Source of the DNA: Anaerolineales bacterium
GTDB taxonomy: Bacteria; Chloroflexota; Anaerolineae; Anaerolineales; UBA4823
Direction of reading: 5' to 3'
DNA: 64,000 nt
Assembly: GCA_020060465.1 (NCBI GenBank)
Contig: JAGVAD010000015.1
Coordinates: 62,001 to 126,000, forward strand
This document shows positions 17,196 to 63,986 of this stretch, piece by piece (position 1 is the stretch's first letter; every line of letters begins with the position of its first letter). The notes beneath the pieces were generated by a model. The model saw nothing but the letters and a program-made list of their open reading frames with translations, searched no databases and had not been told where the DNA came from. The translations under genes were made by a program, and so were the position numbers.

Positions 17196-17622
17196 GCCTC
17201 ACCAAGTTTCTAACAGGATTTGCGCATCTACCTTTGGCGCATGGGGTTCAGACGATACATACCTGCCGGAGGTTCCTGCAACCGTGGGTCTCCCCTATTC
17301 CTCCACTCTTTCTTGATGTCGAGTTTAATAATTGGTGACCGTCTCCCTATTCGGCGTTGATGAACGATAGGATTGATCACTAAGCCACAGAGCGCACAGA
17401 GAAGAGATAAGAAAATCCCCGTGTACTCTGTGCCTGCTTTGAAAATAGACTCTCTGTCACCAACGCTAAAGATGGAGACTATATAATTGTCTCCTTCTAT
17501 AAAATTATTGATATTCCCTGAAATTGGTTTATCTCGTCGGTGCAAAACGCCCCGCAGGTTTCTGATCATACAGGCTGTTTTCAGGGAAACCTGCGGGACA
17601 TTCATGACCATAGATGGCGCGA
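17196..17622. other. 427-base intergenic region with a hairpin and a dispersed repeat
   Basis: No gene is supported here. It holds a small inverted repeat GGAGAC (17474-17479) / GTCTCC (17489-17494) with TATATAAT in the loop, and one copy of dispersed element A at 17507-17607. The rest is AT-richer than the flanking genes and unassigned. Confidence 0.6.
17507..17607 (+). repeat. Dispersed palindromic element A, copy 1
   Basis: It begins ATTGATATTC and contains the arms CCCCGCAGGTTTCTGATCA and AAACCTGCGGGACATTC, which pair to form a long hairpin. Other copies are at 20420-20495, 31671-31756, 57050-57147 and 62273-62395. This copy lies downstream of the HAD-like gene and does not touch its stop codon. 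Confidence 0.75.
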
Positions 17623-20419: not shown

Positions 20420-20495
20420 TGGAGCGCGCTTGAAAACAAGCGTGTATGATTAAAAACCTGCGGGATGTTCTTCACCAAATTATCTGAAGGTCAAT
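20420..20495 (+). repeat. Dispersed element A, copy 2 (right half only)
   Basis: GAAAACAAGCGTGTATGAT, then AAACCTGCGGGATG and the right end TATCTGAAGGTCAAT at 20481-20495, match the right half of the complete copy at 62273-62395. The left half is missing. It lies in the 384-base gap between the leader peptide and the L,D-transpeptidase, which also holds an inverted copy of family B and a TATAAT at 20660-20665. Confidence 0.6.
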
Positions 20496-29251: not shown

Positions 29252-31675
29252 ATGAGCGATACGATGGTGAGCGGTGAAGCGTTAGGTCTCTCTTTAGGTC
29301 CCCAGGAAATATTACAAGATTATCGTCTGGCGTATCAAAGTCGGCAAGCCAGCTATGTTGGGCGGCGAGAAGTGATGAGCGGCAAAGCCAAGTTTGGAAT
29401 TTTTGGCGACGGCAAGGAGCTTCCGCAACTGGCAATGGCGCACGCAGCGCGCCCCGGCGATTGGCGTTCTGGTTACTACCGCGACCAGACGTTCATGTTC
29501 GCCACACAGACCAGTACACTGGAGGCGTTCTTTGCCCAACTTTACGCTCATGCAGATGTGCAGGCTGATCCCGCCTCCGCTGGGCGCTCAATGAATGCTC
29601 ACTTCGCTACCCGCAGCCTGAACCCGGATGGAAGCTGGAAAGACCTCACCGTCCTGGTGAACAGCGCGGCAGATGTCTCCCCAACTGCCTCGCAAATGCC
29701 GCGCGCGGTGGGGCTGGCATACGCCTCCAAGCTCTTCCGCCAACTCGATGAGCTGCGCCCTTTTCAGCAGCTCTCTAAAGACGGAAATGAGATCGTCTTT
29801 GCGACCATCGGCAACGCTTCCGCCGCGGAGGGCTTGTTTTGGGAGTCCATCAACGCCATTGGCGTGTTGCGTTGCCCGGCAATCGTTACGATTTATGATG
29901 ATGGCTACGGCATCTCCGTCGCCAACGAGCATCAAGTGGCAAAGGAAAATCTCTCCGAATTGCTGGAGGGCTTCCGCCGCCCGCCAGGCGAATGTTGCGA
30001 CGGATTTGACATCTATGTGGTCAAAGGTTGGGATTACCCCGCTCTGATTGACGTGTATCAGAAAGCCGCTATGGTCGCCCGCCAGGAACACATGCCTTCG
30101 ATTGTGCATGTAACTGAACTGACTCAGCCTCAAGGACATTCCACCTCCGGCAGCCATGAGCGTTACAAATCCCCGGAACGGCTGAAATGGGAGGCTGAAT
30201 TCGATTGCGTCAAGAAGTTCCGCGAGTGGATTCTGGCCGAGGGCGTCAGCGATGAAAAAACGCTGGAACGCCTGGAGGCTGAGGACCGAAAGACCGTGGA
30301 GGAAGCGCGTAAGCGCGCCTGGGAAGCCTATCAATCGCCCATAAATGAAGATCGGCGGAAGGTGGTCGCTTTAATAAATGACCTGGCCCGCACTTCCGCA
30401 GCAAATGCGGAACTGACGCAGACGACGACCAAATTGATGGGCATCCCCACTCCGCTGCGGCGGGATGTTTCCGCGGCTGCGCATCGGGCGTTGACGCTTA
30501 CCCGCGATGAACATTCTCCGGCGCGGGCCGCGCTGGTAGAGTGGGTGAGGCAATTGGAGAAAGAAAGCATTGAGCGGTATGACTCTCATCTCTATCTTCA
30601 AGGGGCTCGGTCAGCCCTGAATGTCGAGGAGATTAAACCGGTTTATTCGGATACTTCTCCCACACTTTACGGCTTTGAGGTGCTCAATGCGTGTTTCGAC
30701 GCCGCCCTGGCGCGTGAGCCGCGTTTCATCGCCTTTGGCGAGGATGTAGGGCGGCTGGGTGATGTCAACCAGGCTTTCCGCGGCTTGCAAGACAAATACG
30801 GCCCCTTGCGCGTGTCGGATACTGGCATTCGCGAGGCGACCATTGTCGGGCAGGCAATTGGCATGGCGCTGCGCGGTCTGCGCCCGCTGGCCGAGATCCA
30901 ATATCTGGACTATTTGCTTTATGCGCTGCAAATCCTCTCGGATGATCTGGCTTCGCTTCTCTGGCGCACCAAAGGCGGGCAGATCGCGCCGGTCATTGTG
31001 CGCACACGCGGCCACCGATTGGAGGGCATCTGGCATTCCGGTTCGCCGATGGGGGCTATCCTGCATCTGCTGCGCGGGATGCACGTGCTTGTGCCGCGCG
31101 ACATGACCCGCGCAGCCGGTTTCTATAACACCCTGCTGCGCGCCGAAGAGCCAGCGTTGGTGATCGAAGTGCTCAATGGCTATCGCATCCGCGAACGTTT
31201 GCCAGATAACATTGGCGAGTTCACTGTGCCGCTGGGCGTTCCTGAAACGCTGCGCGTCGGTAGCGATATTACGTTGGTGACCTACGGGGCGTGTTGTCGC
31301 ATCGCTCTGGAAGCGGCAAACTTGCTCAGCGAGGTCGGCGTGGAGGCGGAAGTGATAGATGTGCAATCGCTGTTACCCTTCGACATTCATGGCCGTATCC
31401 TCGAATCATTGAAAAAGACCAGCCGCATCATTTTTATTGACGAAGACGTGCCCGGCGGCGCTACCGCTTTTATGCTGCAAGAGGTGATCGAAAAACAGGG
31501 CGGGTATTATTGGCTTGATGCGCCGCCGCGCACATTAACAGCCAAACCCCATCGCCCGGCGTATGGTTCAGACGGGGACTATTGGTCAAAGCCTAACGTT
31601 GAGCAGGTGTTCGATGCGGCTTATGAAATGATGCGCGAAGTTGACCCAGACGCATTTCCTGAACTGTACTATTGA
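29252..31675 (+). CDS. Branched-chain 2-oxoacid dehydrogenase E1, fused alpha and beta subunits
   Basis: The thiamine diphosphate-dependent E1 of a 2-oxoisovalerate-type dehydrogenase complex, in one 807-residue chain. Residues about 1-330 are the alpha subunit, with the ThDP-binding region [16 protein letters not shown]. After a helical linker, residues about 475-807 are the beta subunit ([51 protein letters not shown]). The first catalytic reaction is decarboxylation and acyl transfer to E2. ATG 29252 has a GAGGAGAG site. The stop TGA lies inside the left end of dispersed element A copy 3. E2 follows after 115 bases. Confidence 0.92.
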
Positions 31676-31756
31676 TATGATATTCGTTGGTGCAAAACGT
31701 CCCCCAGGTTCCCCAAAAACAGGCCTGTGTGATCAGAAACCTGCGGGACGTTCGTA
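31671..31756 (+). repeat. Dispersed element A, copy 3, supplying the E1 stop codon
   Basis: Starts ATTGATAT at 31671; bases 31673-31675 are the E1 stop. The arms CGTCCCCCAGGTTCCCC and AAACCTGCGGGACGTTCG form the same hairpin as other copies. The canonical TCAAT right end is missing. It sits between E1 and E2 and may act as a weak terminator or mRNA processing site. Confidence 0.75.
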
Positions 31757-31790
31757 AATAACCACAAGCGAAGGATCATGAGGAGGATCC

Positions 31791-56163: not shown

Positions 56164-57054
56164 ATGATCAAGGTCAAGAGGATTGTTGCTCTTTCCCTGA
56201 AATCCTTTAGAAGGCTGCTCTTCTCTTATCTGCTGATTTTCTTGGGAGCTGGGTGCATCGCCCCAACGCAGCAACCGCCGCCTCCTGCAGATACTGCTGT
56301 TTCGCTTATCACTTCTACATCAACCCATACTCTGGCGCCAGCGCCTACTCGCGCCGCTGCCATGCCCACTGAGGAACCTGCTCCGGTCCCGACATTGGAG
56401 ATCTGCCCGCCGCTGCCCGGTTACTCGCGTCAGAATCTGTTAGAAGCTATCAGCAACCCTTATCAACCACCGCGCTTGGGCAGCGACGACCCTCATCAAG
56501 GCGTAGATCTAGCGGTGACGCAAGACGGGATTGCGCTGGCGGGGAATCCGATCCAGGCGGCGCTGGTGGGTCGAGTAGCGATGATATTAAACGACCGCTT
56601 CCCATACGGGAATGCCGTTTTGATCGAGACGCCTCTGCGCTCACTACTTGCTCCAAACGATGATCTTCGTCTGGCAATCCCCACCCCGGCGCCGACGCTG
56701 CCTGCCCACCCTTCGCTCACCTGCCCGGCGGTCAAAACTACAGGCGGTCTGTCTCAACAAAATCGCTCACTCTATCTGCTCTATGCACATCTCTCGGAAA
56801 CAGCAGTGCTTCAGCCGGGGGATGCCGTGGCTTGCGGCGAATATCTGGGAAAAATTGGTCAGAGTGGGAACGCCCTCAACCCACACTTGCATCTGGAAGC
56901 GCGGGTGGGTCCCAGCGGGGCGCGGTTTTCCAGCATGGCGCATTACACCACCTCTGCAAGCGCAGAAGAAATGGGCAATTACTGTCTGTGGCGAGTGAGC
57001 AACCAATTTCAACTGGTCAATCCTCTGGATTTGCTGCGCCTGTTGCCTGATTGA
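56164..57054 (+). CDS. M23-family peptidase lipoprotein
   Basis: A 296-residue lipoprotein with lipobox LGAGC near residue 31 and a Thr/Pro linker. The M23 (LytM) zinc-peptidase domain has the first ligands in DDPHQGVDLAV and the last in NPHLHLEARVG, with YAHLSETAVLQPGD between. An insertion of about 60 residues (near 165-215) separates the halves. It cuts peptidoglycan cross-links. The stop TGA lies inside the left end of dispersed element A copy 4. Confidence 0.9.
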   Translation: MIKVKRIVALSLKSFRRLLFSYLLIFLGAGCIAPTQQPPPPADTAVSLITSTSTHTLAPAPTRAAAMPTEEPAPVPTLEICPPLPGYSRQNLLEAISNPYQPPRLGSDDPHQGVDLAVTQDGIALAGNPIQAALVGRVAMILNDRFPYGNAVLIETPLRSLLAPNDDLRLAIPTPAPTLPAHPSLTCPAVKTTGGLSQQNRSLYLLYAHLSETAVLQPGDAVACGEYLGKIGQSGNALNPHLHLEARVGPSGARFSSMAHYTTSASAEEMGNYCLWRVSNQFQLVNPLDLLRLLPD

Positions 57055-57147
57055 TATTCACCGAAATTGGTTCATCTCGTCGGCGCAAAACGTCCCGCAG
57101 GTTTCCGATCGCACAGGCTCGATTTTAGGGGAACCTGCGGAACGTTC
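57050..57147 (+). repeat. Dispersed element A, copy 4, supplying a stop codon
   Basis: ATTGATATTCACCGAAATTGG starts at 57050; bases 57052-57054 are the peptidase stop. The arms CGTCCCGCAGGTTTCCGATC and GGAACCTGCGGAACGTTCC pair. The TCAAT right end is absent. Confidence 0.75.
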
Positions 57148-57164
57148 CTTGAGAGAAAGTTGCC

Positions 57165-57232
57165 GCTCCAGTCTGCCGTAATGCGGGCTTTGCAAGCCGT
57201 GGCGTCGGTTTCCGACTGATGCCGGGCGAGCG
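57165..57232 (+). repeat. Dispersed repeat family B, copy 3
   Basis: TAATGCGGGCTTTGCAAGCC followed by GGCGTCGGTTTCCGACTGAT matches the copy at 13560-13627. It lies 18 bases after element A copy 4. Confidence 0.5.
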
Positions 57233-57312
57233 CCAACAACAACTTTTGAATACACATCCCAGGGTTGGCGAGGGCGCGCCCAACCATCACCAGCCGAAGT
57301 ATAATCAGCCCA

Positions 57313-59809: not shown

Positions 59810-61040
59810 CGCGCATCGAATTCGAGTCCACCGCGTTTGAAGCGCGCCGATCAACCAGTTGAAGCAATGTCCAGGCGAACTGCAGCGTGTTCTCCAGATC
59901 TCGTTCGCGGATCGTCTCCAGCGTATCGGTCATGCGGTGCCAATGCGAGACAATCCCCGACCTGGGCGCGGGAACCGTGCATACAGTCAGCGCCATCAGG
60001 CCGCGTTTGGTGGCTTGCAAAGCGTCGGTGTAAGCCAGGCCGACCCCTTCAACGATTTCTATCTCAGGCAAAGCATGTTTCGCCTGGCGCGCCAGCTCAA
60101 GGGCGCGGGGATGCGTCTTGTGTTTGAAGATCAAGCCGTCCGCGGTCAGATATTTCAAACCGCCGAGACCAACTTCGTCCAGGATAATGTACGTTGTATC
60201 TTTACCAAGCTTTAGAGCATTTTTATCCAAATAAGCGGCGATTCCCCAATCGCCCACCTCTTCGCATCCGGTAAAAGCCAGATGAATCTCGGTGTGTTTC
60301 AGAGGCAGGCGTCGCAACCGCTGCGCCAAAGCCAACGCCGCCCCCACGCCTGTAGCGTTGTCGTTCGCCCCTGGCGAATATGGAGTGAAATCGGCGTGCA
60401 GACACATCGCCAGGCCAAACAATTGCACCGGCAGCAAAACCAAAGACACCCAGCGCGCGCTCATCCACCCCTGGTATATGCTCAGCCCCAATGCCGCTGC
60501 GCCAACGATCATGCTCAGAAAAGAAAGGCTGACCAGGGCAGTAAACGCCGCATACCAGGCCTCGGACGAATAAAAGATCGGCGTGCGATGAGTGTCCAAA
60601 TGAGCGCATAGAACGATGCGCGCTCGAACATCGCTCTTGGCAGGGATCACTCCACAAACGTTTTGGCTCTCTTTGCGGGAAAGCGCCCAGCGCGTCCAAC
60701 TGGGAGCGAATTCGGTCTCAGCCAGAAAGCCCCACACGCCCGCCAGATTGAGCAGCATCGCCAACGTCCTCTCTCCCTGTCTGTCGGATAACAGCACAAT
60801 CAGCAAGCCGGTCAACGCGGCGGCGAAGGAGAGCGCATAGCCCCAATATGTGGAAGGGATGGCAGTGAAAGGTTCGACGCATATCTCTTTCACTCCGATC
60901 TGCTGCATTTGCTCGGCGGTGTATTCGCCCGCCCGGCGCTCCTGCACAGTACAGCTTCCTCGCCCGCCAATTGTCTGAGATAAGTAGCGGACATGTTGCA
61001 GCGCTTGTTGGACATCTTCAGAAAAGCTGGCGGATGGCAT
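59796..61040 (-). CDS. M28-family metallopeptidase with membrane helices
   Basis: A 414-residue di-zinc aminopeptidase-like protein. Metal ligands are readable: His in LCAHLDTH, Asp in GANDNATGVGAAL, Glu pair in TGCEEVGDWG, Asp in IILDEVGLGG and His in VSHWHRMTD. Hydrophobic helices at about 75-110 and a pair at about 185-230 insert before and within the domain, suggesting a membrane-bound form. It overlaps the convergent M23 gene by 14 bases. Confidence 0.88.
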   Translation of the reverse strand: MPSASFSEDVQQALQHVRYLSQTIGGRGSCTVQERRAGEYTAEQMQQIGVKEICVEPFTAIPSTYWGYALSFAAALTGLLIVLLSDRQGERTLAMLLNLAGVWGFLAETEFAPSWTRWALSRKESQNVCGVIPAKSDVRARIVLCAHLDTHRTPIFYSSEAWYAAFTALVSLSFLSMIVGAAALGLSIYQGWMSARWVSLVLLPVQLFGLAMCLHADFTPYSPGANDNATGVGAALALAQRLRRLPLKHTEIHLAFTGCEEVGDWGIAAYLDKNALKLGKDTTYIILDEVGLGGLKYLTADGLIFKHKTHPRALELARQAKHALPEIEIVEGVGLAYTDALQATKRGLMALTVCTVPAPRSGIVSHWHRMTDTLETIRERDLENTLQFAWTLLQLVDRRASNAVDSNSMRVSER

Positions 61041-61145
61041 GATAGAACGCCTCTTGTTGATCGAACGTCTGGCGAAACAGGATGATAAATCGAACGTCGC
61101 ACGATTGCGAGCGCAGATGCACAGGAGATTCTCAGATGGTTTGCA

Positions 61146-61191
61146 AGGTGATCACCTCCTGGGCGTGGGTGAAGATGCGCTCAATTATAAT
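61146..61191 (+). promoter_or_regulatory. Threonine synthase promoter region with a 12-bp palindrome
   Basis: AGGTGATCACCT (61146-61157) is a perfect palindrome. TATAAT follows at 61186-61191, and no good -35 box is present at the usual distance, so an activator bound at the palindrome is conceivable. The mRNA leader is only about 15 bases and ends in AGGAGG. Confidence 0.5.
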
Positions 61192-61212
61192 TGGATTTTA
61201 TCAGGAGGCTCG

Positions 61213-62277
61213 ATGACCCACACAGGTGTTTACACTCATTACCGAAGTCTTTTAGATATTCCCCCTTATAGCCAGGAGATAACCTTGCTGGAGGGAAATA
61301 CGCCGCTCATCCCCATGCCGCGCCTGGCGCAGCAATTGGGCGGAGGGTTTGAATTATGGGTGAAGTTTGAAGGAACGAATCCAACCGGCTCCTTCAAAGA
61401 CCGCGGCATGACGATAGCCATTGGCGAGGCGCTTGGGCGTGGCGCTCGCGCGGTGATCTGCGCATCCACGGGCAATACGGCTGCTTCTGCAGCGGCTTAC
61501 GCCGCCCGCGCTGGTATGCGCGCCATCGTGCTGATCCCACAAGGGAAAGTGGCCGCGGGCAAGTTGGCTGGCGCGGCAGCCTACGGCGCTCAGGTGGTGC
61601 AAATTGACGGCTCTTTCGACGATGCGTTAGCGATGGTGGTTCAAATCACACAAAAACATCCCATCGCGTTGGTCAACTCGCTAAATCCCTATCGGTTGGA
61701 GGGGCAAAAGACAGCCGCTTTCGAAATCTGCGACACGCTGGGCGCTGCCCCCGATTGGTTATGCCTGCCGGTGGGAAACGCCGGAAACATCACCGCCTAT
61801 TGGATGGGCTTTCAACAGTACCATCGAATCAACGAAACTGGTTTGCCGCATTTGCTGGGGGTGCAGGCAAACGGAGCAGCGCCTCTGGTGATTGGTCGTC
61901 CGGTGGAACATCCTGAGACTCTGGCGACCGCCATCCGCATTGGCCGCCCGGCGCGCGGCGAGCAGGCATTGCAAGCCATAGAAGAATCCGGCGGGCGCAT
62001 GATCGCTGTGAGTGATGACGAAATCCTGGCAATGCAGCGTGCCCTGGCGCAAGAGGGGGTGTGGGTGGAGCCGGCTTCTGCGGCGGGTCTGGCCGGGCTG
62101 GCTGCAGAGATTCGCGCGAAGCGGCTGAACGTGCGCGGTCAGCGCGTGGCGGCGGTTTGCACCGGGCATGGTTTGAAGGATCCCGAGATCATCAGCCGCG
62201 CCTTTCCTGCGCCGCGGTTGCTCCCAGCGAGGCTGGATGCCCTGGAAGAGTTGCTCCTCGCCGGGCAGGATGATTGA
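61213..62277 (+). CDS. thrC: Threonine synthase
   Basis: Converts O-phosphohomoserine to threonine, the last step of the pathway begun by aspartate kinase. The 354-residue PLP enzyme has TLLEGNTPLIPM, the PLP lysine in NPTGSFKDRGM, the phosphate loop PVGNAGNITAYWMGF and VEPASAAGLAG. ATG 61213 follows AGGAGG at 61203-61208; the longer frame from 61039 is not conserved in the family. The stop TGA lies inside the left end of element A copy 5. Confidence 0.94.
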   Translation: MTHTGVYTHYRSLLDIPPYSQEITLLEGNTPLIPMPRLAQQLGGGFELWVKFEGTNPTGSFKDRGMTIAIGEALGRGARAVICASTGNTAASAAAYAARAGMRAIVLIPQGKVAAGKLAGAAAYGAQVVQIDGSFDDALAMVVQITQKHPIALVNSLNPYRLEGQKTAAFEICDTLGAAPDWLCLPVGNAGNITAYWMGFQQYHRINETGLPHLLGVQANGAAPLVIGRPVEHPETLATAIRIGRPARGEQALQAIEESGGRMIAVSDDEILAMQRALAQEGVWVEPASAAGLAGLAAEIRAKRLNVRGQRVAAVCTGHGLKDPEIISRAFPAPRLLPARLDALEELLLAGQDD

Positions 62278-62395
62278 TATTCACCGAAATTGGTTTATCA
62301 CGTTGGCGCAAAACGTCCTGCAGGTTGCCCTAAAAACAAGCCTGTGTGATCAGAAACCTGCGGGACGATCATAACCGAATGATCTGAAGGTCAAT
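62273..62395 (+). repeat. Dispersed element A, copy 5 (complete, 123 bp), supplying stop codons to both flanking genes
   Basis: Ends are ATTGA (62273-62277) and TCAAT (62391-62395). Left ATTGATATTCACC and right-end complement ATTGACCTTCAGATC are imperfect terminal inverted repeats. Inside, CGTCCTGCAGGTTGCCC pairs with AAACCTGCGGGACG. Bases 62275-62277 are the threonine synthase stop; 62391-62393 read on the minus strand are the stop of the phosphatase gene. No ORF is inside. Confidence 0.8.
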
Positions 62396-63986
62396 AGGAT
62401 TCGCGCCGAATCGCCAGTAAGGTAATATCATCCGCCTGGGGCATGCCACCGGTGAAACTTCGCACATCTTGCAGGATTGCGTCCAGCGTATCCTGCGCGG
62501 AGCAAGCGCAACGGCGAATCACGTTGAGCAGACGCTGCTCTCCGTAAAACTCCCCATATTTATCCTGAGCGTCGGTCACGCCGTCCGTGTACATCACCAG
62601 CAGATCGCCAGGCAACAGGCGGACGACTTTTTGCTTCCAGATGAGATCGCCCATCACGCCCAACGCCATGCCAGTGGGTTGCAGACGGTCGAGAGATTTG
62701 CTTTTCTGGCTGCTGATCAGGATCGGCGGGTTATGCCCGGCGTTGACGTAGCGTATGCGCGCAGTGAGCGGATCCAACACGGCATAAAAGGCGGTGACAA
62801 ACATGCCACTGCGCGAGTCGGTCAATATGCGCTCGTTGACAGTGCTGATGGAGAGCGCCGGTAGTGTGGGGTATTGCTTGGCGTAAGTGCGGATCAAGGT
62901 GCTGGCCAGCGCCATAAAGAGTGCTGCCCCCATGCCCTTGTCAGAGACATCGGCAATTACCAGCCCCCAATGGTTGTTGAGCAGTGGGATAAGATCGTAA
63001 AAATCGCCTGAGGTCTCCAGCGCTGGCTCCAACCGAGCTGCCAGGTCCCAGCCGGGCAATACCGGCATGCGCAAGGGGAGCAGATCGGTTTGGATTTTAG
63101 CTGCTGCCGCCAATTGCTGAGCCAGGTTTTGCGAGGCGGGCTGCCTGGCGGCGGCCAGAATGTGCGCCATAGGGCGGGAAAATAACTCCGTCAGCCTCTT
63201 CACCGTCCACAGCAAATTATTCATTTCGTCGCTGGCGTTTGCCGACCAGACTGCAAGTCCACCAACCATTTTGCTGGTCTCACCGAACACCGGCGCCAGG
63301 AGCAGGTCACAATCGCATGGCAATTCAGGTCCCCAGGGAATAGGGTCGCCAGCATAAATGATCTGAAGCTCTGCTTGCTCCTGAAGCCAGCGCCAGCCGT
63401 CTTCAGATAGCCGATGAATGCTCTCCGCCGGAAACTTTAGCAATTCCCTGGCGGGCAACAGTCGGACTTCAATCTCACAATCTGGCAACGCCGCCGGTAG
63501 ATGTTTGCGCAACAGGCCGGCCAATCGGCTGGCGTCTATATCCTCTTCGTTTAAGGATTGTCCGATGCGCTCGAGGCTGGTCTCCTGGCTGGAGAGCGCC
63601 CGGGGAGTGACCGGACGCCGTTCATGGTACGCTTGATGGATGGCGGCTGTCAACTCTTCAGCGGTGAGATCTTTGATCAAATAGCCGATTGCGCCAGCCT
63701 CCAGGGCGCTTTGTGCCAGGCCCTTTTCGAGGAAGTTTGTCAGAACCAGCACCTGGATATTCGGCCAACGGGCGCGGATGGCGCGCGTCGCCGTGATCCC
63801 ATCCATCACTGGCATCTTTAGGTCCATCACCAGGATGTCGGGCTGCACCAACTCGCAAAGCTGGATGGCCTCTTCGCCGTTCACGGCTTCCCCCACCAGC
63901 ACAAGTCCTTCGGCAGCCATGATAAATGCGGTCAGCCCGCTGCGGATGAGGGGCTGGTCATCTGCGATTGCTACTCGTATAGGCAT
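62391..63986 (-). CDS. Receiver-domain PP2C (SpoIIE/RsbU-type) phosphatase
   Basis: A 531-residue signalling protein. The N-terminal receiver domain (about 3-125) has DDQPLIR, phospho-acceptor in DILVMDLKMPVMDG and the lysine in GYLIKDLT. A GAF-like segment covers about 150-275. The SpoIIE-type PP2C domain (about 300-530) has metal-binding GDFYDLIPL, ADVSDKGMGAALFMA, NAGHNPP and YTDGVTDAQDKYGEFYG. Such proteins dephosphorylate anti-sigma antagonists when the receiver is phosphorylated. No kinase or anti-sigma partner is in view. ATG 63986 follows AGGTGAG. Confidence 0.92.
   Translation of the reverse strand: MPIRVAIADDQPLIRSGLTAFIMAAEGLVLVGEAVNGEEAIQLCELVQPDILVMDLKMPVMDGITATRAIRARWPNIQVLVLTNFLEKGLAQSALEAGAIGYLIKDLTAEELTAAIHQAYHERRPVTPRALSSQETSLERIGQSLNEEDIDASRLAGLLRKHLPAALPDCEIEVRLLPARELLKFPAESIHRLSEDGWRWLQEQAELQIIYAGDPIPWGPELPCDCDLLLAPVFGETSKMVGGLAVWSANASDEMNNLLWTVKRLTELFSRPMAHILAAARQPASQNLAQQLAAAAKIQTDLLPLRMPVLPGWDLAARLEPALETSGDFYDLIPLLNNHWGLVIADVSDKGMGAALFMALASTLIRTYAKQYPTLPALSISTVNERILTDSRSGMFVTAFYAVLDPLTARIRYVNAGHNPPILISSQKSKSLDRLQPTGMALGVMGDLIWKQKVVRLLPGDLLVMYTDGVTDAQDKYGEFYGEQRLLNVIRRCACSAQDTLDAILQDVRSFTGGMPQADDITLLAIRRESY

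Follow-up and report, generated by a model that had tools for sequence, protein, structure and literature searches.

The 123-bp imperfect palindrome at positions 62273-62395 (+) of the window, the 64,000-nt stretch of DNA analysed here, is a full-length member of a new MITE family of known kind, and the link of this family to stop codons is explained as a side effect of target choice, not as a purpose-built stop signal. We consider it very probable that the element is a non-autonomous MITE of ~123 bp that targets TA within YTAR, hits stop codons through this choice of target and decays thereafter. The copy starts with ATTGATATTC and finishes with GGTCAAT, in agreement with the original prediction that the full copy ends in TCAAT. 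Its left-end TGA (62275-62277, +) is the stop of a gene of the threonine synthase type (61039-62277; PALP by Pfam), while its right-end TGA (62391-62393, -) is the stop of a convergent gene encoding a SpoIIE-type phosphatase with a receiver domain by Pfam (62391-63986, -). Of the two flanking TA dinucleotides, the right one (62395-62396) is intact, whereas the left one (62272-62273) has mutated to GA. A strong hairpin is predicted when either this copy or the family consensus is folded, and the predicted inner stem of the copy pairs GTCCTGCAGGTT (62315-62326, +) with AACCTGCGGGAC (62355-62366, +).

The window holds copies starting at 17507, 20433, 31671, 57050 and 62273, and the four besides 62273 are partial. 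Five copies with a common left end had been proposed; four indeed carry ATTGATAT, while the one placed near 20420 is a right half (20433-20495, +) that comprises the second stem arm with the right end and lacks the left end. The copy at 17507-17602 (+) retains its left end and hairpin, has a degenerate right end, and no coding frame runs into it from its left. Two further copies have lost their right ends: one lies between the E1 dehydrogenase gene and the next gene (31670-31760, +; start 31670/31671), where the E1 stop reads TAT TGA (31673-31675, +) and the congener G001 has TAA, and the other (57050-57145, +) provides TGA 57052-57054 as the stop of an M23 peptidase gene. Open reading frames terminate on an element TGA at 31675, 57054 and 62277 (+) and at 62391 (-), exactly as originally described for the E1, M23 peptidase, threonine synthase and phosphatase genes, and Pfam confirmed the identity of all four, including the E1 dehydrogenase and M23 peptidase at the 31670 and 57050 contacts. 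Neither congener, G001 or G002, has at the collinear position the segment of ~1.1 kb (window 56180-57277) in which the 57050 copy and the M23 peptidase gene lie, so that neither offers a comparison for the M23 peptidase stop.

Beyond the window, BLAST with the full 62273 copy as query recovered ~40 places in the genome under study (G000; 3.18 Mb, assembly 83% complete), and a covariance model derived from 25 copies, combined with BLAST, raised this to ~57 distinct copies. The same model found ~48 copies in G001, 3-4 in G017 and zero in G002. A terminal pattern of 27 bases, with up to 3 mismatches allowed, gave 25 matches in the genome versus 0 for a reversed-pattern control; together with the ~57 genome-wide copies, this shows that the family is not a product of chance. 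The left terminal repeat is restricted to G000, G001 and G017 among 400 genomes of the order, as is the right-end pattern among 101 relatives searched. An exact 20-mer from the left end had two single matches in unrelated taxa, which were taken as chance.

The copies are many, short and non-coding, full ones measuring 118-125 bp and the closest being 85-91% identical to that at 62273. Their terminal inverted repeats are related but imperfect (TTGATATTCACCGAAATTGG / TTGACCTTCAGATAATTTGG; ATTGA...TCAAT plus inner matches), with family end sequences TTGATATTCACC (left) and TTGACCTTCAG (right). The consensus is palindromic, reading ATTGATATTCACCGAAATTGGTTTATC from the left and ATTGACCTTCAGATAATTTGGTTATGAACG from the right when read inward, and has a 15-bp inner stem (AACGTCCCGCAGGTT / AACCTGCGGGACGTT); this structure is a fold of the consensus sequence, as RNAalifold on the alignment yielded no useful consensus. 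Many copies have lost one end, and several sites are apparently common to G000 and G001 (L009/L041 and L025/L082 with matching flanks, L026/L081 aligned). The family is thus probably old and now decaying, and the divergence and truncation of the copies, along with the absence of covariation described below, suggest that this decay is neutral.

Inspection of the ends revealed the target. At 72 of 104 recognisable ends a T is kept before ATTGA, and in 69 of these 72 it is preceded by C or T, giving the consensus YTAR (C/T-TA-A/G), with reconstructed targets that are chiefly CTAA and TTAG. The cleanest empty/filled pair is L069, empty in G000 (...GGATTATTAGTTGTCG...) and filled in G001 (...GGATAATTA[TTGATC...ATCAG]TAGTTGTCG...), where the TA is exactly duplicated relative to the empty site. 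The element therefore takes the TA of YTAR as its insertion site and duplicates this TA, which bears out its description as MITE-like. Since TAA and TAG are themselves TAR, stop codons of these types that follow C or T are target sites. Duplication of a TA target is known from IS630 and ISY100 of the Tc1/mariner family (PMC2170065), and the preference of IS630 for TA in CTAG, as cited there (Tenzen and Ohtsubo 1991, cited in PMC2170065), is close to the YTAR seen here. Our element is IS630/Tc1-like by its target only, and a transposase of this type most likely mobilises it. IS630 and ISY100 are autonomous and carry a transposase gene, whereas none is linked to the present family.

An autonomous transposase gene with matching ends, which the original prediction had proposed as a check, was looked for with the end pattern and not found in G000 (at its 83% completeness), G001, G017 or the 400 genomes of the order, nor in two extra terminal fragments that we inspected. 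Such an element would be helpful for the MITE call but is not required for it. In a search with NF033545 at the family cut-off, the sole IS630-family gene of the genome lies at G000:C60:174181-175057 (L112, L114), is disrupted across frames and adjoins a second transposase-like open reading frame. We rejected it as a partner, as it is disrupted and its ends differ from those of the MITE.

How do the stops arise? In relatives without the element, a TAA or TAG lies exactly at the inserted TA in all seven resolved cases. The phosphatase gene ends in AAC TAA in G001 and in TCC TAT TGA here, and the E1 gene in TAT TAA in the relative and TAC TAT TGA here. Likewise, CGT TAA became CGT TAT TGA at L018, and TAT TAG in the relative corresponds to AAT TAT TGA at L069. 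The element end is mutated in two further cases, L003 (relative TAC TAA; filled TAC TAA CGATATTC) and L021 (relative GAT TAA; filled GAT TAG TGA). The seventh, L059 (relative TTT TAA; filled TTC TAC TGA), has other DNA between its flanks in G001 and is thus empty of the element without being a perfect empty site. When the flanks are joined, TAG is restored at L033 and TAA at L078 (G001), both without a confirming relative. The insertion point thus sits inside pre-existing stops, in line with the proposed insertion into gene ends. Because the ends begin with TTGA, a TA at codon positions 1-2 followed by TTGA reads TAT TGA, and a stop that is hit is rebuilt one codon later. An eighth case, the threonine synthase gene, differs: the stop of its relatives lies two codons further upstream (TGA in G001, TAG in G002), at a codon that reads CAG here, and the element TGA now serves as stop.

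Taking two genomes together, we found 18 genes with a frame that ends inside an intact-ended copy. Of these, 15 stop at the terminal TGA or at a stop derived from the TA, two of them with weak coding scores, while the other three read on into the element. Random frames would give one third, from which a binomial probability of ~2e-5 was calculated by hand. The proposed "four of four" thus holds for the contacts in the window and is not a rule. The truncated right end at L244 ~1512 (G000:C21:32234), where a gene reads into the element as CGT TTA TTG ACC TTC AGA TAA, is a counter-example to any claim that the stop is always the TGA. Stop codons account for ~14 of 70 insertions. Among YTAR sites outside coding sequence, 10 of 48 in the window are stop codons, as are 15 of 129 on the collinear contig of G001; with genes taken from codon-score predictions, this is a rough estimate of the expected share. 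Since the stop-hit rate is close to YTAR availability outside coding sequence, target preference together with removal of in-gene insertions suffices to explain it, and the suggested selection at gene ends is not borne out.

These results bear directly on the proposal that the element is a portable stop plus terminator, or an mRNA-stabilising hairpin, selected at gene ends because it benefits the upstream gene. The strong predicted hairpin and the 15 of 18 frames ending on the terminal stop would fit such a role, but the stop is already present at the same position in relatives without the element, an outcome that the original prediction had itself named as refuting, and stops are hit at the rate that target availability predicts. 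That copies are rarer between divergent gene pairs than target sites are (24 of 104 copies versus 41 of 87 YTAR sites) would fit the role too, yet such a scarcity is also expected from purging of promoter insertions. Furthermore, covariation in the stem was not above that of shuffles (3 versus 2.5 pairs; 89.9 versus 89.8% paired), no terminator was predicted at the element, a T-run after the stem is absent, and ends are frequently lost. We therefore rejected such selection as very improbable on the basis of the empty sites, the target availability and the absence of covariation and of a T-run; a small effect of the element on 3' ends is possible. A known RNA family was likewise rejected as its identity, as Rfam returned no significant match.

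A different origin could be imagined from the core of the hairpin. Of 298 genomes of the class, 46 contain the pattern TCCCGMAGGTT-N(2-32)-AACCTKCGGGA, which reaches 72 matches per genome (G218 72, G169 63, G174 44, G323 32; example loci L193-L212), while the reversed control gave zero matches. Many core loops are very short (often 2-6 nt) or ~28 nt, the latter as in this family, and in G169, G218 and G261 the core lies within elements that end in other sequences, for example AGTAACTCACCTTACGCAGAACG. The distant genome G246 carries a RAYT-like Y1 transposase gene (L139 1295-2082; G246:C87) with two CTCCCGCAGGCT hairpins directly upstream and one directly downstream, forming a REPtron-like unit. 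This directly flanked gene and the wide occurrence of the core would be expected if the element were of the REP type, with a RAYT (Y1) transposase mobilising the inner hairpin as the unit and the outer ends being incidental. By contrast, the insertion boundaries coincide with the TTGA ends and the TA duplication, a DDE-type signature, and not with the hairpin, and no such hairpin lies close to the Y1 genes found in G000 and G001. We thus give this reading little chance. As in CGTC and GTAG REPs with RAYTs, there is a palindromic hairpin with CGTC at the base of the stem, and G246 has its RAYT-like gene with similar flanking hairpins. However, the published tag of CGTC REPs, which were reported without a transposase, is unpaired (PMC3733652), whereas CGTC is paired with GACG in our element, which lacks the unpaired GTAG/CGTC tag of REPs and has terminal repeats and a TA duplication. 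Tentatively, the core (TCCCG[C/A]AGGTT, ~28-nt spacer, AACCT[T/G]CGGGA) might be a class-wide module of several palindromic families whose ends are unrelated; it would have begun as a RAYT-associated REP hairpin and been captured by TA-targeting MITEs.

To return to the TA-targeting MITE with decaying copies, it is most likely moved in trans by a transposase of the IS630/Tc1-mariner type. It inserts at the TA of YTAR, so that some TAA and TAG stops are hit and usually become TAT TGA. Insertions within genes would be purged, while those in stop codons would be nearly neutral and hence retained. The terminal TGA can also take over when an older stop is subsequently lost, as seen for threonine synthase, and the copies would thereafter decay neutrally. 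The family resembles RUP (which has IS630-Spn1 ends) and ERIC/RU-1, the TA-duplicating bacterial MITEs (PMC2229807, PMC2759123), in its size of ~100-130 bp, its palindromic and non-coding nature, its TA target and its many intergenic copies. It differs from them in that its sequence and host group are unrelated, no autonomous partner was found here, and its ends start with TTGA, so that a stop that is hit becomes TAT TGA. A repeat supplying stop codons is also known from Streptococcus pneumoniae, where BOX gives the stop codon of 36 genes with no clear protein truncation (PMC3049150). The sequence and modular structure of BOX differ from those of our element, and here empty sites show that the original stop was the insertion site.

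That element families differing in their ends have a core hairpin in common is a puzzle of its own; if the module was indeed captured, such elements would be chimeric, their conserved part differing from the part that the transposase cuts. For the family itself, the filled and empty sites amount to a multi-locus natural experiment, in which a stop-like target lets a transposon land in genes almost without cost, the price of landing in a stop codon being about one added residue and a new TGA. This offers a simple explanation for bacterial repeats that "encode stop codons" and cautions that the association of small repeats with stop codons should not be taken as function.
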